Assembly (NCBI GenBank): GCA_018822845.1
Contig: JAHJJD010000108.1
Span: 1 to 45,665 of the forward strand
Reading direction: 5' to 3'
From: Gammaproteobacteria bacterium
GTDB lineage: Bacteria; Pseudomonadota; Gammaproteobacteria; Thiotrichales; Thiotrichaceae
DNA: 45,665 nt
Position numbers and translations under genes: made by a program
Shown here: in pieces, positions 109 through 23,750 of the stretch
How positions within the stretch are numbered: position 1 is the stretch's first letter
How the letters are laid out: the number at the start of each line of letters is the position of its first letter
Notes under the pieces: generated by a model
Databases searched by the model: none
The model's input: the letters and a program-made list of their open reading frames with translations, nothing else
Told to the model about the DNA's origin: nothing

Positions 109-396
109 ATTTACCACCGGTTTGGCGAAGGTATTGTCAATGGCTATCGTTTTCGCCGCCAAACGGTATTGGGGCGTTATATCGCTGATTTTGTTTGCTT
201 GGAAGCACGGTTGGTGATTGAACTGGATGGCAATCATCATCATGAACAGCAAGGTTACGACCGCGAACGCGACAACTGGATGCAGCAACAGCAATTCAAG
301 GTACTACGCTTCTGGAATTACGAAATCCTGAATCATCAGGAAGCCGTTTTACAACAAATCTGTTACGCCTTACAACGCAGTCACCACACCTCTTAG
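109..396 (+). pseudogene. DUF559-domain protein, N-terminally truncated
   Basis: The reading frame matches the C-terminal two thirds of DUF559 proteins, a restriction-endonuclease-like fold related to Vsr. Visible family motifs are NGYRFRRQ, GRYIADFVC, RLVIELDGNHHHEQ (the acidic active-site region) and KVLRFWNYEIL. An in-frame TGA at 106-108 blocks the frame, and the usual 30-40 residue N-terminal part (the EAEKxLW region) is not encoded upstream in this frame. The first conventional start in frame is TTG at 169, which would remove conserved sequence. I therefore read it as a decayed or truncated copy, although ATT at 109 or 133 could in principle start a short product. It sits beside accessory genes and next to a REP-like element. 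Family assignment is firm; whether it is functional is not. Confidence 0.7.
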
Positions 397-438
397 CCCC
401 TTCACCCCTTGCGGGGGAAGGGGTTGGGGATGGGGGGG
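397..438. repeat. REP-like palindromic intergenic element, copy 1
   Basis: A GC-rich imperfect hairpin (CCCTTCACCCC, loop TTGC, GGGGGAAGGG) is followed by GTTGGGGATGGGGGG. The same element, inverted, occurs at 26148-26185 between yidC and mnmE. Similar C/G-rich elements are scattered between genes in many proteobacteria. It lies just after the DUF559 fragment and before the convergent end of the peptide operon, where it could stabilise 3' ends or act as a weak terminator. Confidence 0.6.
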
Positions 439-498
439 AGGTTCGAAGTGAGACAGCAAATTACACCACGGGGGTATTTATTTTTACCGCGCGGAAAC

Positions 499-831
499 TT
501 AAACGGCTGGCGGTACCGGCGGGGTAGGCAATTGTTTTATCAATGCAATCACCTGTCTACGCTCTTCCACCCGGCACTGACGGCTGTGGCCGGATTGGGT
601 GCTGGTGCAACCCGACGCATTCCAGGCAATCACGGTGGAAGCCGTTTCACCTTGCGGCTGAATGGTGACACGCAAACTGCTGCCCGCCGCAAAATCCAGC
701 CTGCTGTCATCGCGGGCGTTAATCGCCGGAACCTCGCCAACGATCTGCATATCGATACTGTTGCCAGCAGCTTCCACCCCGGACATCATCAGAATGAATA
801 ACAGGCTGCGGGCGTAATGACGGGATTTCAT
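499..831 (-). CDS. Small secreted protein of unknown function, last gene of the HExxH operon
   Basis: The product is 110 residues long. Residues 1-22 look like a Sec signal peptide (basic MKSRHYAR, hydrophobic LLFILMMSG, ending VEAAG). The mature part is mostly polar, with two cysteines (SGCTSTQSGHSRQC) that could form a disulfide, and it ends in a proline-rich tail (LPTPPVPPAV). The start ATG overlaps the stop codon of the upstream gene by four bases (ATGA at 828-831), so translation is coupled and it is the fourth gene of the operon that begins with the polyglutamine peptide. I do not recognise a family. A periplasmic partner of the modified peptide is an inference from position only. Confidence 0.7.
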   Translation of the reverse strand: MKSRHYARSLLFILMMSGVEAAGNSIDMQIVGEVPAINARDDSRLDFAAGSSLRVTIQPQGETASTVIAWNASGCTSTQSGHSRQCRVEERRQVIALIKQLPTPPVPPAV

Positions 832-1658
832 ATTTCCTCCAGTGAAACAAGTTCCTGTTGCATGATTTCGTCCATGATTGATGCATCGATGCTCTGGCTG
901 GTCACATGGCTGAAGGCAGCAAATGTAAGCTTGTCATCATCGGCAAAAAACAGGACTTCTCCAAAAGCGGTGCCAAACAACTGGCTGATCAGGCGGCTGG
1001 CAGTATGCAAAAGCTGTTCGCTATCCTGATCCAGCGTCTTGTTCAACAGAACCGTGTTATTGATGACGGTTGCGACAACCGGAATACCCGCTGGCCTTTC
1101 GACCACAAAGGTATGCCAGTCACGCTCCGGCCGTTCATTTGGCTTCCATGACCTCAAGTCAAACGGTGATTTGTAAATGGTATTGGCAAAACCTGCCGTT
1201 ACGGGTGGCAAGTTGCCGAAGGCGTAGTCGTAACGCGGCGTTGCTATCGGTAAATCCAGCGTTTGCACACGTTTCCATTGCAGGTAGAGCGGCAGATAAT
1301 CCCCGCATAGCGCGTATAAACCTGTCCGGGCGCTGGCCTGTTCGGCGGAATCAATCAAGCGCCGGAATGCGCATTCTGTTTCCAGTTGAACCACCTTCAA
1401 GGGGAATTCCGTGGAAACCTGAAGGCTTTCATCATAAATAAAAGCCCGGTTAAGCAGATAACTGCCATTCCTGAAAGGCCCTTGCATCGCTTCCGGCAAG
1501 CTCAGGGTAAAGCGGCCTGCGGCATCCATTTGCCACTTGCCGTGCCGTATGCCTTCTTCCACACACAAGGCTTGCATGTTTCGGGCATGCTCACTGACGC
1601 GCAAAGCTGATTGGGTAATGGCGTCAGGCGAAAACTGTGAATATAACAAACTTAACAT
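828..1658 (-). CDS. Unrecognised 276-residue protein partnered with the HExxH enzyme
   Basis: The start is set at 1658, where ATG overlaps the stop of the upstream HExxH gene by seven bases (ATGTTAA). The longer frame to 1832 would only read through that gene. The protein has no signal peptide and no membrane segment, so it is presumably cytoplasmic. The C-terminal half (motifs TPRYDYAFG, KSPFDLRSWKPN, then alternating hydrophobic strands and FGEVLFFADDDKLTFAAF) is vaguely reminiscent of the C-terminal lobe of ATP-grasp peptide maturases. The resemblance is weak and I cannot place the ATP-binding residues, so I do not assign a function. Overlap on both sides points to a complex or shared pathway with its neighbours. 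Confidence 0.75.
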   Translation of the reverse strand: MLSLLYSQFSPDAITQSALRVSEHARNMQALCVEEGIRHGKWQMDAAGRFTLSLPEAMQGPFRNGSYLLNRAFIYDESLQVSTEFPLKVVQLETECAFRRLIDSAEQASARTGLYALCGDYLPLYLQWKRVQTLDLPIATPRYDYAFGNLPPVTAGFANTIYKSPFDLRSWKPNERPERDWHTFVVERPAGIPVVATVINNTVLLNKTLDQDSEQLLHTASRLISQLFGTAFGEVLFFADDDKLTFAAFSHVTSQSIDASIMDEIMQQELVSLEEI

Positions 1659-2749
1659 AACGCACCCCTTGCATCCTGATAGTAGGCTTGCACATCTTGC
1701 GACATTAACCGGTATTGCATCATTACCCAGTCCGGCGATTCGCCAACCATATTGAGCAAATGCACGATGTCGGTAACCCGGAAACCGCGTGAACAGTGAT
1801 TCATCAGCAGAGCCACCTGCGGTTTGTCGCACTGCACGTCGGGCGCATGGAACAGCAGTTTATAAAACTCGAACAAGGCGAAATAAATATAAACCGCGTG
1901 GGTAAAGGCATTGTAGGGAATGGGGTTGCCACTCCACGGGGAAACAGGCCGCACCAATGAGGTTTGGTTGAAACCCACGAAGCCACCGTTCTGCAATTCA
2001 TACATCGCCAGAAAACTGTGTAGCGATTCATGAATCAGGGCGTCGGCCACATCGTAAATATCTTTATCCGCCAGATGGAAATTCAACAGGCGCATCTCGC
2101 CAATGGTGGTGGGGTCGGTTTCAGCCGCAATGTTTTCACTGGCGGATACCCGGATGCGAATACAGCGGGTGGTATTGCGTATCAACTGACCGGCAGTGCT
2201 GGCGACGGCATCAATCAGGACCATTGCCTGGCTCAATTTATCAATGATTTCTGCGCGTATGGCTTTGGAAACAGGCAGTGGTGTTTCAGAAAAAACACTG
2301 CTGGTAAGATCCTTGCGCAGCGCCTGTGGACTATCAAAATCGACAATAATGCTATTTGCGATAGTTGTGGTCAGGTTTTCCTCACCCTCGAAATATTCGC
2401 GATCCGTCAAGGCCGTCCAGCCAGACCCTTGCCCGCGTTGCAGGCGAATATCTTCGGCGTATTTCCCCATCACCGCACAATAATCGTCAGACTCCATCTT
2501 GCAGGCGGCTGAACTCAATAACGCGAACGCGACTGGCGACAACAGAAAGTTTTGCCGCTCTTCTACTGTGGCACTGTGGATAATTTCCTGATGCTGAAGA
2601 AATTCCTGTGGGGAATTGTGCTGGGCCAACCACAAACATTCCTCCAGCCAGCCTTCGACCATCACCAGATGCGCACGCAGTACACCATGCACAATGGGCG
2701 GGGCAACCTTGGGCCACTTCAGGGTGTAATACAACTGGGTGCTGCTCAT
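1652..2749 (-). CDS. HExxH-motif putative peptide-modification enzyme (mod_HExxH-like)
   Basis: This 365-residue protein has HESLH at residues 240-244, preceded by DVADALI and followed about 25 residues later by SPWSGNPIPYNAFTHAVYIYF (SPW at 270-272). The pairing of HExxH with a downstream SPW..P....H block is what I know from the HExxH family found in RiPP clusters, members of which have been described as metal- and 2-oxoglutarate-dependent peptide beta-hydroxylases. It has no signal peptide, so it should act in the cytoplasm before export. A clear ribosome binding site (GAGGAG) lies about nine bases upstream of ATG 2749. It is the second gene of a leftward operon, 69 bases after a small polyglutamine peptide gene with a hairpin between them, and it overlaps the next gene by seven bases. 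An ordinary zinc peptidase remains an alternative; I see no gluzincin or metzincin context. Confidence 0.7.
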   Translation of the reverse strand: MSSTQLYYTLKWPKVAPPIVHGVLRAHLVMVEGWLEECLWLAQHNSPQEFLQHQEIIHSATVEERQNFLLSPVAFALLSSAACKMESDDYCAVMGKYAEDIRLQRGQGSGWTALTDREYFEGEENLTTTIANSIIVDFDSPQALRKDLTSSVFSETPLPVSKAIRAEIIDKLSQAMVLIDAVASTAGQLIRNTTRCIRIRVSASENIAAETDPTTIGEMRLLNFHLADKDIYDVADALIHESLHSFLAMYELQNGGFVGFNQTSLVRPVSPWSGNPIPYNAFTHAVYIYFALFEFYKLLFHAPDVQCDKPQVALLMNHCSRGFRVTDIVHLLNMVGESPDWVMMQYRLMSQDVQAYYQDARGALC

Positions 2750-2779
2750 GACTTTACTCTCCTCGCTGTCAGTGGAAAT

Positions 2780-2809
2780 AAAGCAGGCTGGGAAAATCCA
2801 GCCTGCTTT
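2780..2809 (-). terminator. Hairpin between peptide gene and HExxH gene (partial terminator/attenuator)
   Basis: A perfect 12-bp inverted repeat (AAAGCAGGCTGG / CCAGCCTGCTTT, six-base loop) lies between the stop of the peptide gene at 2819 and the ATG of the HExxH gene at 2749. On the transcribed strand it is followed by TTTATTTCC, a short imperfect U-tract. Such a hairpin would let the small peptide be made in excess over the enzymes, a common arrangement in peptide-natural-product operons. Confidence 0.75.
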
Positions 2810-2818
2810 TCAGGGCAT

Positions 2819-3097
2819 TTACTCCACGTCAAAACCCCGATCACCGGCGGTTGGCAGCAATGTGCCGTGTGACATCAGCCCGCGCTTCTTCAACTGTTGC
2901 TGCTGTTGTTGCTGTTGCTGTTGTTGCTGCTGTTGTTGAGCCAGGCGTGAAGTGTCAAAACCGCTTTTCACTACCGATACCTTGGCGATCTCGGCTCCGG
3001 TCAGGGTGGTGGCGGCACGCTCTTGCGCGGTTGCTACTACTGGAACAGACAGGCAGGTTGCTACGAGTCCAGGGATGATCAAGTTACGCAGTTTCAT
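2819..3097 (-). CDS. Secreted polyglutamine peptide, candidate precursor for the HExxH enzyme
   Basis: The 92-residue product starts with a typical Sec signal (MKLR, then a hydrophobic stretch to VVATA, likely cleaved before QE at about residue 24). The mature part begins ERAATTLTGAEIAKVSV and has two GFD motifs: KSGFDTS before and DRGFDVE after a run of 15 glutamines. The C-terminus is GFDVE-COOH. A strong ribosome binding site (AAGGAG) precedes ATG 3097. It leads the operon with the HExxH enzyme, separated from it by a hairpin. I recognise no named family. A role as the substrate of the downstream enzyme is inferred from size, position and the hairpin. Modification of a Sec-type precursor would have to happen before export. 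It could instead be a plain secreted protein with a repetitive linker. Confidence 0.75.
   Translation of the reverse strand: MKLRNLIIPGLVATCLSVPVVATAQERAATTLTGAEIAKVSVVKSGFDTSRLAQQQQQQQQQQQQQQQLKKRGLMSHGTLLPTAGDRGFDVE
2894..2938 (-). repeat. CAA/CAG microsatellite encoding 15 glutamines
   Basis: Fifteen consecutive glutamine codons, an irregular mix of seven CAG and eight CAA, lie in the middle of the small peptide gene. Mixed codons reduce slippage compared with a pure repeat, but the tract could still vary in length by in-frame steps. Confidence 0.95.
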
Positions 3098-3368
3098 GGT
3101 GTATCTCCTTACAAGTCACTGAAAGTATTGAACTGACACAGGTAGATTCAATCTTCTTCCGCTGGATTTTTCGGGAATCAGGAATGAATTACCTTGAGAT
3201 ACAGGTTACCCGCTTGATGATTCTCATTCCGTGAGGAATCACACAGTTAATTCGTGAATAAGTCACACGCTGCAAGGAGTCTGAAGCACGGCTACGCAGC
3301 AGCGGCAGTATGAATACTGTACCCGGCTGTGGCAGAATCAAGGTGAAGTCCCCTGCAACCGCAAGCAC

Positions 3369-3953
3369 ATGAAGGTCAAGGTCATGGCAGAACCCGTCAA
3401 AGCCAAACAGGAAGCCACCTATGAGGATTTGCTGCAAGTCCCCGAACACCTGATTGCCGAAATCATCAACGGTGAGCTGCATACACAACCCCGCCCCACT
3501 GTACGCCATGCACGCGCGGCCTCCATGCTCGACCGGGAAGTAGGCGGTGAATACGACTTCGGCAGCCGTGGCCAGGGCGGATGGATCATCCTGTTCGAAC
3601 CGGAACTGCACCTTGGCAGCAAACCGCACATTCTCGTCCCCGATCTGGCAGGCTGGCGGCGGGAACGGATGCAGCAACTGCCGGACACGGCATGGATCGA
3701 ACTGGCTCCAGACTGGGTATGCGAAGTCATTTCCCCATCCACCGCCAGCAAGGACAGGATACTCAAGATGCCCATCTACCGTGAGCAGGGGGTGGAATGG
3801 TTATGGATGGTTGACCCGGAACACAAGACGCTGGAAGCGTACCAGTCCCTCAATGGCCACTGGGTACTGCTGGGCGCATGGGGTGATGATGATGTGGCGA
3901 ATATTCCGCCGTTTGATGCGGTGGGGATACCGTTGGATTCGTTGTGGCTTTAA
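3369..3953 (+). CDS. Uma2 family (DUF820) restriction-endonuclease-like protein
   Basis: This 194-residue protein shows the Uma2/DUF820 pattern: TYEDLLQVPE near the N-terminus, AEIINGELH, then HILVPDLAGWRRER (the acidic PDLAGW strand), WVCEVISPSTASKDR (the ExIS acidic/Ser motif and downstream KD) and KMPIYREQGVEWLWMVDP. These proteins have a PD-(D/E)xK-type fold and are abundant in cyanobacteria and filamentous sulfur bacteria; their substrate is not established. ATG 3369 is the longest start. ATG 3384 (MAEPVKAKQ) is also possible and has AAGG-type sequence upstream. It stands alone between divergent and downstream accessory genes. Confidence 0.85.
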   Translation: MKVKVMAEPVKAKQEATYEDLLQVPEHLIAEIINGELHTQPRPTVRHARAASMLDREVGGEYDFGSRGQGGWIILFEPELHLGSKPHILVPDLAGWRRERMQQLPDTAWIELAPDWVCEVISPSTASKDRILKMPIYREQGVEWLWMVDPEHKTLEAYQSLNGHWVLLGAWGDDDVANIPPFDAVGIPLDSLWL

Positions 3954-17368: not shown

Positions 17369-19795
<2,427 letters not shown>

Positions 19796-19823
19796 TTATC
19801 CATTTTCATGTAGGCAAACGGTC

Positions 19824-20918
19824 TCACCGCAGGCTGGCTTTGCCTTGTTCCACGTGAAACACGCGGGCATCAGCGAACCTGTTACGTAGTGGCTCGTGGT
19901 GAGTGCCGGTAATAATCAACTGTTGTTGCGTCGTGCGTAAGGTATTGTACAACGCTTGCTGGTTTTGCTCATCCAGTTCCGAAGCAAGGTCGTCTATGGC
20001 GATTATACCGCGCTTTGCCGCATCATCGGCAGCGGCGTGGCTTTGCGCAAGTAACAGGGCAACCGCCAGCAGTTTCATCTGCCCGCGCGAAGCCACCCGC
20101 ACTGCCGGAACGCCTTCCAGCAGAATGTGCAAATCAGCGCGATGGGCACCGTACAGGCTGAAACCCTGCTTGAGTTCCTGTTCCTCTTTTTGGCGGAAGA
20201 ACTGCTGCAATCCCGCTATGTCTTCCGCATCGATATTGCCCGGAAAGCCGTTGCTGAGCTGCAAATGCGGAATTCCCAGATTCACCAGTAATCCATCACT
20301 GGCTTCCAGATCAACTTGCAGTGCCGCCAGTGCCTGAACCCTGTACCGGTACAATATTGGTTGCAGGGTAATCAGTTGCCCTGTCCAGTGGCCGAGGGCA
20401 TAACGTTGTTTAGGATCGCGCAAGCAGGTATTGCGTTGCTTGAGTATACGCTGATAGTTGCGCCATGCCTGATTGAAATCAGCGAAACGGTAAAAGGCAA
20501 TCCAGTCGAGGAAGGCGCGCCGCAGGGAAGGGCTACCCGTCACCAATTCCACCGAACCAGGGTGGATCAGGGTCAGGGGAATGTGGCTGCTGAGTTCCGC
20601 TTGTTGCTGTACGTCCGCGTGGTTGATGCGGATACGGGTTGTCTGGATGCCCTTGCTGACACCAAGCGGATAACTGCCACCAGCGACCCCATTTTCCACT
20701 TTGGCACTAACGGTCAGCTCGCTTTCACCACGTTGTATCAGTTCGGCAATGCGCGGCGTGCGAAATGAACGTCCACGTGAGAGGACAGCCAATGCTTCCA
20801 GCAGGCTGGATTTGCCGGAAGCATTGCCACCGTACAGGACATTGGCGTGTGCGGCCAGTTCCAGTTCTGTACTGGCAATAATACGGCAATGGTTAACCGT
20901 AAGCCTGCTTAACCACAC
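19824..20918 (-). CDS. recF: DNA replication and repair protein RecF
   Basis: The 364-residue SMC-like ATPase loads RecA at gaps with RecO and RecR. Walker A is in LYGGNASGKSSLLEAL, the signature region is ASRGQMKLLAVALLLAQS, and Walker B is in GIIAIDDLASELDEQNQ. It starts 15 bases after the dnaN stop. A parS-like site lies inside its last codons. Confidence 0.95.
   Translation of the reverse strand: MWLSRLTVNHCRIIASTELELAAHANVLYGGNASGKSSLLEALAVLSRGRSFRTPRIAELIQRGESELTVSAKVENGVAGGSYPLGVSKGIQTTRIRINHADVQQQAELSSHIPLTLIHPGSVELVTGSPSLRRAFLDWIAFYRFADFNQAWRNYQRILKQRNTCLRDPKQRYALGHWTGQLITLQPILYRYRVQALAALQVDLEASDGLLVNLGIPHLQLSNGFPGNIDAEDIAGLQQFFRQKEEQELKQGFSLYGAHRADLHILLEGVPAVRVASRGQMKLLAVALLLAQSHAAADDAAKRGIIAIDDLASELDEQNQQALYNTLRTTQQQLIITGTHHEPLRNRFADARVFHVEQGKASLR
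19846..19861. promoter_or_regulatory. parS-like site 2
   Basis: TGTTCCACGTGAAACA matches the parS consensus at 15 of 16 positions (one change, position 5). It lies within the 3' end of recF, about 2.5 kb from site 1 and about 2.2 kb from the presumed oriC. Confidence 0.82.
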
Positions 20919-20933
20919 GCGGGAATAGTCCGG

Positions 20934-22043
20934 TTACAGGCGAATCGGCATAATGACATTGCGTACTGTTTCATCTTCGGGATCAGTCGCCAGTGCGCTG
21001 CTTTCCGGCGAGTTGCAATGCAAACGTAAGGTATCGCCTGAAAGGTGGCTAACGGCATCCAGCAGGTAGGTTACGTTAAAGCCGATACTGAAATCGTTAC
21101 CGGAATAGGCAATGTCCAGTTCATCTGTAGCCACTTCCTGTTCAGGGTTATGGGCTTGCACCTGTAACAGGTTTTCGCTTAAGGAAAGACGCACTCCCCG
21201 GAATTTCTCATTGGAAAGGATTGCCACGCGGTTAAGCATGTCCTTGAATGTCTTGCGGTCAATATCGATCTGGATCTGGCCACCACCCGGTACCGCAGCA
21301 CGGTAGTCCGGGTAACGCCCGTCCACCAGTTTGGTGGTGAAACGCAGGTTGTCGAGCTGTACCCGCAAGTGGTTTTGACTGGCTTGAACCAAGACTGGCA
21401 CCTGTGAATCAGAACGCAACAGACGGGAAAGTTCCAACACACCCTTGCGTGGAATGATCAATTGGCGTGGTTCAGTCACACCGTTGATTGCGTCATTATG
21501 GAAACACAAGGCAAGCCGGTGACCGTCCGTTGAAACCGTGCGGACTCCATCGGGATTCACTTCCAGCAACATGCCATTGAGATAGTAACGCACATCCTGG
21601 TTAGCCATGGCGAAAGCCGTGCTATCAAGCAAATGTTTCAACTGGTTTTCGGGCAATTCAAAGGAATGCATTTCACCAATGTCTTCCAGATCAGGGAATT
21701 CGCTGGCGGGCAGGGTAGCAAGTTCAAAACGGCTCCGTCCTGAAGTAACCCGTGCACGGTTGTCTTCCTGAACCTCAAGATTAACGATGCTTTCAGCAGG
21801 CAGGGATTTGCAGATATCGGCCAGCTTGCGGGCAGGCAGGGTAATGCTGCCATCAGCACCATCCATGATCGGCGAATGGGTGGAAATTTCGAGTTCCAGA
21901 TCAGTCCCTCGCCAGAAAGACTGTGTGCCTTCAATGCGTAGCAGGACATTTTCCAGAATAGGGGCTGTATGACGTTTCTCAATCGCTCCCAGGGTGGCTT
22001 GCAGGGATTCGAGCAAATGTTCGCGGGTTTGGGTCAGTTTCAT
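20934..22043 (-). CDS. dnaN: DNA polymerase III beta subunit (sliding clamp)
   Basis: The 369-residue protein forms the dimeric ring that tethers polymerase to DNA. Family marks are MKLTQTREHLLESLQ, the mid-protein FAMANQDVRYYLNGMLLE followed by STDGHRLAL, and the C-terminal NVIMPIRL. Length and the three repeated domains match DnaN. It follows dnaA across the presumed origin and leads recF-gyrB. Confidence 0.96.
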   Translation of the reverse strand: MKLTQTREHLLESLQATLGAIEKRHTAPILENVLLRIEGTQSFWRGTDLELEISTHSPIMDGADGSITLPARKLADICKSLPAESIVNLEVQEDNRARVTSGRSRFELATLPASEFPDLEDIGEMHSFELPENQLKHLLDSTAFAMANQDVRYYLNGMLLEVNPDGVRTVSTDGHRLALCFHNDAINGVTEPRQLIIPRKGVLELSRLLRSDSQVPVLVQASQNHLRVQLDNLRFTTKLVDGRYPDYRAAVPGGGQIQIDIDRKTFKDMLNRVAILSNEKFRGVRLSLSENLLQVQAHNPEQEVATDELDIAYSGNDFSIGFNVTYLLDAVSHLSGDTLRLHCNSPESSALATDPEDETVRNVIMPIRL

Positions 22044-22267
22044 GCTTCTAATATCTATCTTGTATATTTAAAACAGTAGTAATAGTAAAGGGAAGTCCTG
22101 TTTGTGGATACTTTCTTTATCTGCCTGATTTACAAGGTTGCCAGGGGTCTATTCTGTAAGGATAAACCTGTGGCTTTACCCACTGCCAGCCTGTCGGCAA
22201 CCTGTGGGTAAAATTATCCACAGGCGTTATCCACAGGTTGTTCAATGGGTTGCTCTGTTACTTGTCC
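22044..22267. other. Probable oriC in the dnaA-dnaN gap
   Basis: The 224-base gap holds two perfect DnaA boxes TTATCCACA at 22214-22222 and 22227-22235, spaced 13 bases apart. Near-matches are TGTGGGTAA at 22203-22211 and TGTGGATAC at 22103-22111. An AT-rich stretch at about 22044-22100 (including TTGTATATTTAAAAC) is next to dnaN and could be the unwinding element. The dnaN promoter probably also lies here. The position and box cluster support an origin; replication start itself is inferred. Confidence 0.75.
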
Positions 22268-23665
22268 TCAGTTTGTTAAGGTGCGCAGCAGAATGCGGTA
22301 CTCCTCATCCAGTTTCGGTGTTGATTCGCGTAGTTCTGCTACCTTGCGGCAGGCATGCAACACCGTGGTATGGTCACGCCCACCGAATTCTTCACCAATT
22401 TCCGGCAGGCTGTGGTTGGTCAGTTCCTTGGCCAGCGTCATGGCAATCTGCCGAGGCCGTGCCAGCGAACGGGTGCGGCTTTTGGAATCCAGATCATTCA
22501 CCCGTATGTTGTAATACTGGGCGACCACTTTCTTGATGTTGCCCATGGAGACCATTTTGTCCTGGCTGGCCAGTTGGTCGCGTAGTGCTTCCTGCACGAA
22601 ATCCATGGTCACGTGGCTGATGCACTTGAGCCGCATGCTGGCAATAACCCGTTGCAATGCGCCTTCCAGGTCGCGGATGTTGGAATGGAAGCGTTTGCCG
22701 ATAAAGAAACTGACATCGTTGGGCAGCAGCAAACCCGCGTCTTCAGCCTTCTTGCGCAGGATGGCGACCCTGGTTTCAAGGTCGGGGGATTCGATCTGTA
22801 CCGTCAACCCCCAGTTGAATCGGGTCTTGAGGCGGTCTTCGATGCCGTCCAGATCCTTGGGGAATTTGTCGCTGGCGAGAATGATGCGTTTCTGGCCTTC
22901 CAGCAGGGCGTTGAAGGTATGGAAGAATTCTTCCATGGAACGGTCCTTGCCAGCAAAGAACTGTATGTCATCAATCAACAGGGCATCGACGCTGCGGTAG
23001 TGCAGCTTGAATTCTTCCATGCGTGAATTGCGGATGGCGGCGATCATGTCGTTGACGAAACGTTCTGCGTATACATAAATCACGCGCGCATTCGGGTTGC
23101 GCTCCAGTATGCGGTTGCCAATGGCATGCATCAGGTGGGTTTTGCCCAAACCTACCCCGCCGTAAATGAACAGTGGGTTGTAGGAGGTATCCGGCTGGTC
23201 GCCAACCTGTTGCGCCGCTGCACATGCCAACTGGTTGGATTTGCCTTCCACGAAATTGTCAAAGGTCATGCGCGGGTTGAGTGCATTGGCAAAGCGCTCG
23301 CTGACCGGAGCTGGCATGTGTGTGCCTGGCGGTGGAGAACCATTGTGGCCCCGGTATCCGTTGTGTTCTTGTAAAACGGGATGGCGCAGTGTTTCGGGCC
23401 GTACCGGTATGGGGGGCTGAGGTGCCGGGGTGGAGGAGCCAACCTGCAACAGGACATTAAATTCATTATCGCCACTGAGAATGCGCGCATGAAATACAAT
23501 GCGTGTCAGGTAGTTTTCATGCACCTGTTGTAAAACAATGGTGTTGGGTGCGAGCAAGTACATGGCGTTACGTTTTTCGACTGCGTGCAGGGAGCGTAGC
23601 CATGTACTGATTTCATGGGCAGGTACTTCCTGTTCCAATTGTTGTAAACATTGTTGCCAGAGCAT
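22268..23665 (-). CDS. dnaA: Chromosomal replication initiator protein DnaA
   Basis: The 465-residue AAA+ initiator has the N-terminal MLWQQCLQQLEQEVPAHEISTWL typical of domain I, a variable proline-rich domain II, Walker A in GGVGLGKTHLMHAIG, Walker B in ALLIDDIQFFAGK, and the C-terminal box-binding signature GGRDHTTVLHACRKV. ATG 23665 is chosen because the family N-terminus starts here; the TTG at 23722 lies in the promoter region. A DnaA box near its promoter suggests autoregulation. Confidence 0.97.
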   Translation of the reverse strand: MLWQQCLQQLEQEVPAHEISTWLRSLHAVEKRNAMYLLAPNTIVLQQVHENYLTRIVFHARILSGDNEFNVLLQVGSSTPAPQPPIPVRPETLRHPVLQEHNGYRGHNGSPPPGTHMPAPVSERFANALNPRMTFDNFVEGKSNQLACAAAQQVGDQPDTSYNPLFIYGGVGLGKTHLMHAIGNRILERNPNARVIYVYAERFVNDMIAAIRNSRMEEFKLHYRSVDALLIDDIQFFAGKDRSMEEFFHTFNALLEGQKRIILASDKFPKDLDGIEDRLKTRFNWGLTVQIESPDLETRVAILRKKAEDAGLLLPNDVSFFIGKRFHSNIRDLEGALQRVIASMRLKCISHVTMDFVQEALRDQLASQDKMVSMGNIKKVVAQYYNIRVNDLDSKSRTRSLARPRQIAMTLAKELTNHSLPEIGEEFGGRDHTTVLHACRKVAELRESTPKLDEEYRILLRTLTN

Positions 23666-23721
23666 AGAAAGGCGGTTCCAAGGTAGTTGAAACGGGTGGA
23701 TAGGGTGTGTTGGAACCCTCA

Positions 23722-23750
23722 ATTATAGACGCCCGCAGGAGTTATCCACA
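23722..23750 (-). promoter_or_regulatory. dnaA promoter with overlapping DnaA box
   Basis: On the minus strand TTGTGG, an 18-base spacer, then TATAAT (23722-23727) makes a plausible sigma-70 promoter for dnaA. A perfect DnaA box, TTATCCACA on the plus strand at 23742-23750, covers the -35 element. This placement fits repression of dnaA by its own product. Confidence 0.65.

Follow-up and report, generated by a model that had tools for sequence, protein, structure and literature searches.

A rare gene family pairing small signal-bearing peptides with a HExxH-type enzyme: a candidate Sec-exported RiPP system with a polyglutamine core

The window treated here, the whole stretch of 45,665 nucleotides that was analysed, comes from a gammaproteobacterium of the Thiotrichaceae (assembly GCA_018822845.1, contig JAHJJD010000108.1, positions 1 to 45,665) and carries a four-gene operon in which a small signal-bearing peptide with a run of 15 glutamines is followed by a HExxH-type enzyme, a partner protein and a 110-residue protein. 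The trio of peptide, enzyme and partner recurs in distant genomes, and the gene family is real, rare and coherent. Judged from sequence, it is best explained as a new variety of ribosomally synthesized and post-translationally modified peptides (RiPPs), modified by a HExxH enzyme and exported by Sec. The gene architecture fits a RiPP with putative enzyme-installed modifications, and we consider it rather probable that the product of the operon is a peptide that undergoes post-translational modification and Sec export, in which the core would be hydroxylated before export.

The operon and its relatives

Every described element of the operon (four genes, Q15 tract, hairpin and gene overlaps) lies on the minus strand. 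The precursor gene (2819..3097) encodes 92 residues with a hydrophobic N-terminus and A-x-A sites, a Sec-type signal judged on hydropathy and A-x-A alone. The glutamine tract, the presumed modification site, comprises exactly 15 residues (54-68; 2894..2938) and is encoded by mixed CAA and CAG codons; the C-terminus reads RGFDVE, and the single cysteine lies inside the signal. An intergenic hairpin (2780..2809) separates the precursor gene from the enzyme gene (1652..2749; 365 residues), which overlaps by 7 bp (1652-1658) with the gene of the 276-residue partner (828..1658). The partner reading frame is nested in a longer frame starting with GTG and overlaps by 4 bp (828-831) with the gene of the 110-residue protein (499..831), which is signal-like by eye and has a short proline-rich tail. 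The first-pass annotation had described the signal-bearing peptide, the hairpin, the HExxH protein with its SPW block and both overlaps, and all of these are present. Its interpretation holds up in large part, with the corrections given below.

Thirteen loci make up the family, namely the window, L006, L007, L008 (= L004), L009, L010, L011, L013, L023, L024, L025, L026 and L027; they stem from the window, 11 Xanthomonadales-type genomes and one viral contig (L013). Five others (L005, L012, L028, L034 and L035) are outside the count because they are of more distant types. One or two small signal-bearing genes stand directly upstream of the enzyme gene at all 13 loci, giving 16 precursors, and homologous loci lacking the peptide gene, which the first-pass annotation had named as refuting, were not found among them. 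The partner gene follows the enzyme gene at each of the 12 loci that continue past the enzyme, L013 stopping there, and a single partner query recovers all 12 partners (window, E 1e-14; L027, E 3e-15). At L027 a PDZ-like gene lies between enzyme and partner. A look for the same four-gene order in related genomes had been proposed; the set of peptide, enzyme and partner is kept, but tblastn at E<=1e-3 found no homologue of the 110-residue protein at any of the 12 further loci. In the enzyme tree, the 13 family rows stand together against four outgroup rows (support 100/98). The window and L027 are set apart from the other ten in the partner tree (100/98) and from the rest in the concatenated tree (99/99); long branches were flagged in all three trees.

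The 365-residue protein reads as a divergent relative of the alpha-ketoglutarate/HExxH (aKG-HExxH) peptide hydroxylases. Its first assignment to a RiPP-type HExxH family is borne out by likeness to the mod_HExxH peptide beta-hydroxylases: the proposed search against NCBIfam TIGR04267 (mod_HExxH) returned a match at E 3.2e-7 (30.5 bits, under the curated cut-off of 40), the only mod_HExxH match of the genome at E<=0.001. All eight family enzymes scanned match this model at E<=1 (best 8.7e-10), and a relative in genome G335 reaches 40.7 bits, above the curated cut-off. Pfam gave no family for the window enzyme at E<=10. With a profile of ten aligned enzymes, two PDB entries matched at E<=10; ChlH (8s5f) was the better of them (E 0.053), its alignment spanning HExxH, SPW and HA. 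An earlier eight-enzyme profile gave ChlH as the sole PDB match (E 0.26). Invariant in the ten enzymes are, among others, H240, E241 and H244, S270-P-W-S273 and H284, the last of which could, from the alignment, be a metal ligand. None of the ten has an obvious signal peptide by eye.

The precursors vary least at the C-terminus, where F-x-V or F-x-I falls inside the final four residues in 16/16 and at the exact end in 15; the exception is the window precursor, with one additional Glu after F-x-V. We take such an F-x-V/I-COOH end to be similar to a class II PDZ ligand. Two GFD motifs had been pointed out in the window peptide. The C-terminal one aligns with the conserved F-x-V/I, but the upstream one (in GFDTSRLAQ15, where Phe-Asp stands some residues ahead of the Gln run) aligns with no conserved feature. 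The core varies in type: polyglutamine in the window (Q15) and at L027 of genome G599 (Q12, with signal and the end QGFIV); His-rich (HHxDSxGSHHHH or similar) at L007, L008, L010, L011, L013, L023, L024 and L025; CTxYxSGGTHC or similar at L009 and L026; and GDGHWHYDP at L006. Two tandem His-rich precursor genes were seen ahead of one enzyme gene at L010:4641-5285, L011:4801-5416 and L025:2910-3559. Apart from the Q15 tract, no Q run of at least six occurs in any of the window's six frames, and no other place in the window's genome (3,999,244 bases, 130 contigs) has at least eight consecutive CAR (CAA or CAG) codons; G599 has three such places, one being its Q12 precursor. The codons are mixed in the G599 tract as well.

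In the case of the partner, no match better than E 0.05 was obtained in Pfam, NCBIfam or PDB, an AcrIF11-like family remaining below the cut-off at E 0.059. An ATP-grasp origin, suggested by eye, was rejected on an hhalign probability of 0.1% with one candidate, a weak test because that candidate itself has no Pfam match. The 110-residue protein is the weakest member of the operon. It matches DUF6801 below the cut-off (E 7.5e-4), and because no homologue was found at the 12 other loci its role is only positional: it is the counterpart by position of the PDZ-like genes at L006 and L027, to which no sequence similarity was found. Homology to these was considered and discarded (no BLASTP alignment with the L027 protein and no tblastn match at the other 12 loci). 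The L006 and L027 PDZ-like proteins are homologous (E 2e-7) and both have proline-rich tails; their PDZ matches are sub-threshold (E 0.0018 and 0.0051).

The hairpin region of the window folds at -26.3 kcal/mol (z -3.2), and one of 200 shuffles was equally good. A terminator scan of window positions 300-3400 found none, and the hairpin has no U-run. Clear hairpins of other sequence form at the same place, in the interval separating the precursor gene from the enzyme gene, at 13/13 family loci; measured against mononucleotide shuffles, their z ranges from -0.4 (L011) to -5.9 (L027).

Comparison with described systems

The pfl and pos clusters of Pseudomonas resemble the window's operon in that a small precursor containing a Gln run is encoded close to an aKG-HExxH enzyme; in pfl/pos these glutamines are beta-hydroxylated (PMC12636437). 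Beta-hydroxylation affects QQQQ in the case of PosC and five Gln of QQQQIQ in that of PflC; PflC is also able to hydrolyse a truncated substrate (PMC12636437). HExxH hydroxylation of glutamine runs was already on record, which is a correction to the first-pass annotation. The pfl/pos systems feature an NHLP-type leader, an ARMD C-terminus with oxidative cleavage, an MNIO-nitroreductase, GNAT, transporters and four or five Gln, whereas the window family has a Sec-type signal, Q12-15, the F-x-V/I end and a new partner family. No Pfam or NCBIfam match to the NHLP leader or MNIO-nitroreductase was found at E<=10 among the four operon proteins, and the published Pfl/Pos C-terminal motif was found in 0/25 genomes of one genus presumed Pseudomonas-like. 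In the PosC and PflC peptides, Phe-Asp stands immediately ahead of the Gln run (PMC12636437), and the likeness to the window peptide may be due to chance.

The radical-SAM-fused HExxH enzyme (Chl) hydroxylates Asp and His (PMC12636437), and beta-hydroxylation of the ChlH type would suit the His-rich cores of the window's relatives, the enzymes of which share HExxH, SPW and HA with ChlH. By eye, none of the 13 family loci has a radical SAM gene next to that of the enzyme, and no such gene was found in the window operon with Pfam and NCBIfam; such genes occur at L012 and L028 (by eye) and at L034 and L035 (annotated), all outside the family.

Bufferins share with the window family a Sec-signal precursor and a dedicated partner protein (PMC12452194). 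RiPPs with a Sec signal were already described, a further correction to the first-pass annotation, which knew of none that combined a Sec signal with two GFD motifs and a Q15 tract. They differ in having an MNIO enzyme, Cys motifs and a DUF2063 partner, in contrast to HExxH, Gln/His cores and the new partner; no Pfam or NCBIfam match to bufferin-type MNIO or DUF2063 was found among the four window operon proteins. The pes cluster (nitrilobacillins) likewise has an aKG-HExxH beta-hydroxylase, and the precursor on which this enzyme acts carries a conserved motif at its C-terminus, but the cluster involves MNIO and asparagine-synthetase-like nitrile chemistry and a proline substrate (PMC13060819). 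Pro, hydroxylated by PesO, is the newest addition to the reported HExxH substrates His, Asp, Phe and Gln (PMC13060819). A description of the window's gene family was not recognised among the open-access papers listed, as judged in part by titles and the beginnings of abstracts.

Accessory genes and distribution

Two permease genes at L011 belong to MacB_PCD and FtsX, and homologues of both occur after the cluster at 10/13 loci, all with non-polyQ cores: L006:8319-10853, L007:8351-10899, L008:8345-10884, L009:4546-7055, L010:8345-10896, L011:8366-10926, L023:2-2304, L024:3-2329, L025:6533-9000 and L026:635-3122. The presence of the pair at these loci suggests onward transport, or sensing, of a periplasmic product. 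No homologues of the pair were found at the window, L027 or L013, where the downstream sequence is limited: L013 is cut off, L027 continues about 3 kb past the partner, and the window has 498 bases past the operon, up to the contig end at position 1. A methyltransferase of L025 (PF13578) has homologues at 7/13 loci, namely the His-rich ones except L013. The XRE regulator of L023 (HTH_3) has relatives at 7/13 loci, on the opposite strand in three, and these genes lie 5' of His-rich precursors (L007:4262-4594, L008:4208-4615, L010:4051-4392, L011:4242-4592, L013:3554-3910, L023:6218-6688 and L025:2423-2755).

Searches of 63 genomes of the window's family, each with one window protein as query, found enzyme and partner in a single genome, that of the window; its genus accounts for 15 of the remaining 62. 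At class level, the enzyme query matches 3/369 genomes (the window's own, G335 and one weak, distant match), and any mod_HExxH match was obtained in 10/369. The enzyme alignment matches 3/398 genomes at phylum level, and the enzyme occurs in 1/20 genomes of G599's genus. Among 297 genomes of G335's family (the Stenotrophomonas family), the enzyme was matched in seven and the partner in six. All six partner-bearing genomes are among the seven enzyme-bearing ones, the seventh being, by eye, the radical-SAM-type pair at L028; this figure is a co-occurrence and not a probability, because the models draw on sequences of these genomes or of close ones, the six are spread over three genera (3, 2 and 1) and first-look candidates were only partly scored. 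A scan of genome contigs based on two short peptide patterns gave seven loci, six of them family members (Frateuria, Stenotrophomonas and Luteibacter) and one the radical-SAM-type outlier L012. One viral-contig scan yielded L013, two additional ones yielded nothing, and phages gave no match with the L011 enzyme as sole query. Plasmids gave distant Rhizobium loci only, in 2 and 3 records, and radical SAM genes are present at both of those inspected. Given its presence in one genome of 63, the operon appears sporadic and was probably acquired horizontally, as far as distant copies were not missed.

Two of the distant loci deserve mention for themselves. At L028:4271-7744, a radical SAM gene (by eye) stands ahead of a tandem pair of mod_HExxH-like genes, an HExxH arrangement of another kind. 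At L035:2197-7499, on a Rhizobium etli plasmid, annotated radical SAM, JmjC and GNAT genes surround the HExxH relative, possibly as a separate RiPP cluster. In the window itself, a gene for a Uma2-family putative endonuclease (3369-3953; E 1.6e-21) is divergent from the operon. Genes recognised by eye as gyrB, recF, dnaN and dnaA lie at 17369-23722, at a distance of some 14 to 23 kb, which puts the operon near the presumed chromosome origin.

Proposed pathway, alternatives and significance

In the pathway that we propose, the cytoplasmic enzyme and the partner, using Fe(II), O2 and alpha-ketoglutarate, would beta-hydroxylate several or all of the tract glutamines, and the enzymes of the relatives would act on His, Asp or other residues. 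Glutamine is proposed mainly because the activities of PosC on QQQQ and of PflC on QQQQIQ have been published (PMC12636437). The substrate would be guided by the partner as a substrate-presenting subunit, by the C-terminal F-x-V/I as a recognition element, or by both. Sec would export the modified peptide, with signal peptidase standing in for a dedicated leader protease, and the hairpin 3' of the peptide gene may hold peptide transcripts above enzyme transcripts. The final role, the least certain step, might be metal binding or antagonism by the peptide, in the periplasm or after secretion. A bolder version, which we offer tentatively and would not call likely, is that the aKG-HExxH oxygenase and the new partner hydroxylate Gln or His homopolymers of the Sec-exported peptide to give, for instance, poly-hydroxylated polyglutamine, that the secreted PDZ-like protein of L006 and L027 holds the F-x-V/I-COOH end outside the membrane, and that the MacB/FtsX-like permeases move the product elsewhere.

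Several observations weigh against the main interpretation. The 30.5 bits of the window enzyme fall short of the curated TIGR04267 cut-off of 40. The ChlH match is weak with either alignment, and the enzyme-only tree places the window and L027 (G599) without resolution. These two loci also lack both the permease pair and the methyltransferase, their downstream reach being short. The C-terminal ARMD of pfl/pos is absent from the window precursor, and PflC and PosC were compared by published description.

Alternatively, the enzyme might target residues other than Gln, such as an Asp or Ser near the core or, at the F-x-V/I end, Phe or Asp, the polyQ and His runs being metal-binding or spacer elements. 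The constancy of F-x-[VI] beside a variable core would agree with this, as would the reports of Phe and Asp as HExxH substrates (PMC13060819), but a constant end and a variable core also fit a recognition site and a substrate region, and Gln and His are both precedented substrates; we regard this alternative as unlikely, with an appreciable residual chance. Still less probable is that the HExxH protein acts as a metalloprotease of the zincin type and trims the peptide after export, with the Q tract as a spacer and not a substrate. HExxH is the zincin motif, and hydrolysis of a truncated substrate is on record for PflC (PMC12636437); nevertheless, 8/8 enzymes match the NCBIfam aKG-HExxH family and no peptidase family, Pfam gave nothing for the two tested, SPW and HA are common to the family enzymes and ChlH, and the ten aligned enzymes have no obvious signal by eye whereas the peptide has one. 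That the tract arose by neutral expansion of a microsatellite, in an ordinary secreted protein lying next to the enzyme by chance, is very improbable: CAR codons can expand by slippage and two more CAR runs occur elsewhere in G599, but a second polyQ precursor occupies the same place in a distant genome, CAA and CAG are mixed in both tracts, and the window's 4.0-Mb genome has one such run.

Taken as a HExxH-modified, Sec-exported RiPP system, the family unites two recent discoveries, the hydroxylation of glutamine runs by HExxH enzymes and RiPPs exported by Sec. A new family of partner proteins comes with it, and its cores (Q, H and C/H) form a natural series on one enzyme type, so that the substrate choice of HExxH oxygenases becomes directly testable. 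Moreover, the export of a Q15 peptide by a bacterium, possibly in hydroxylated form, would offer a route to asking how polyglutamine stays soluble.

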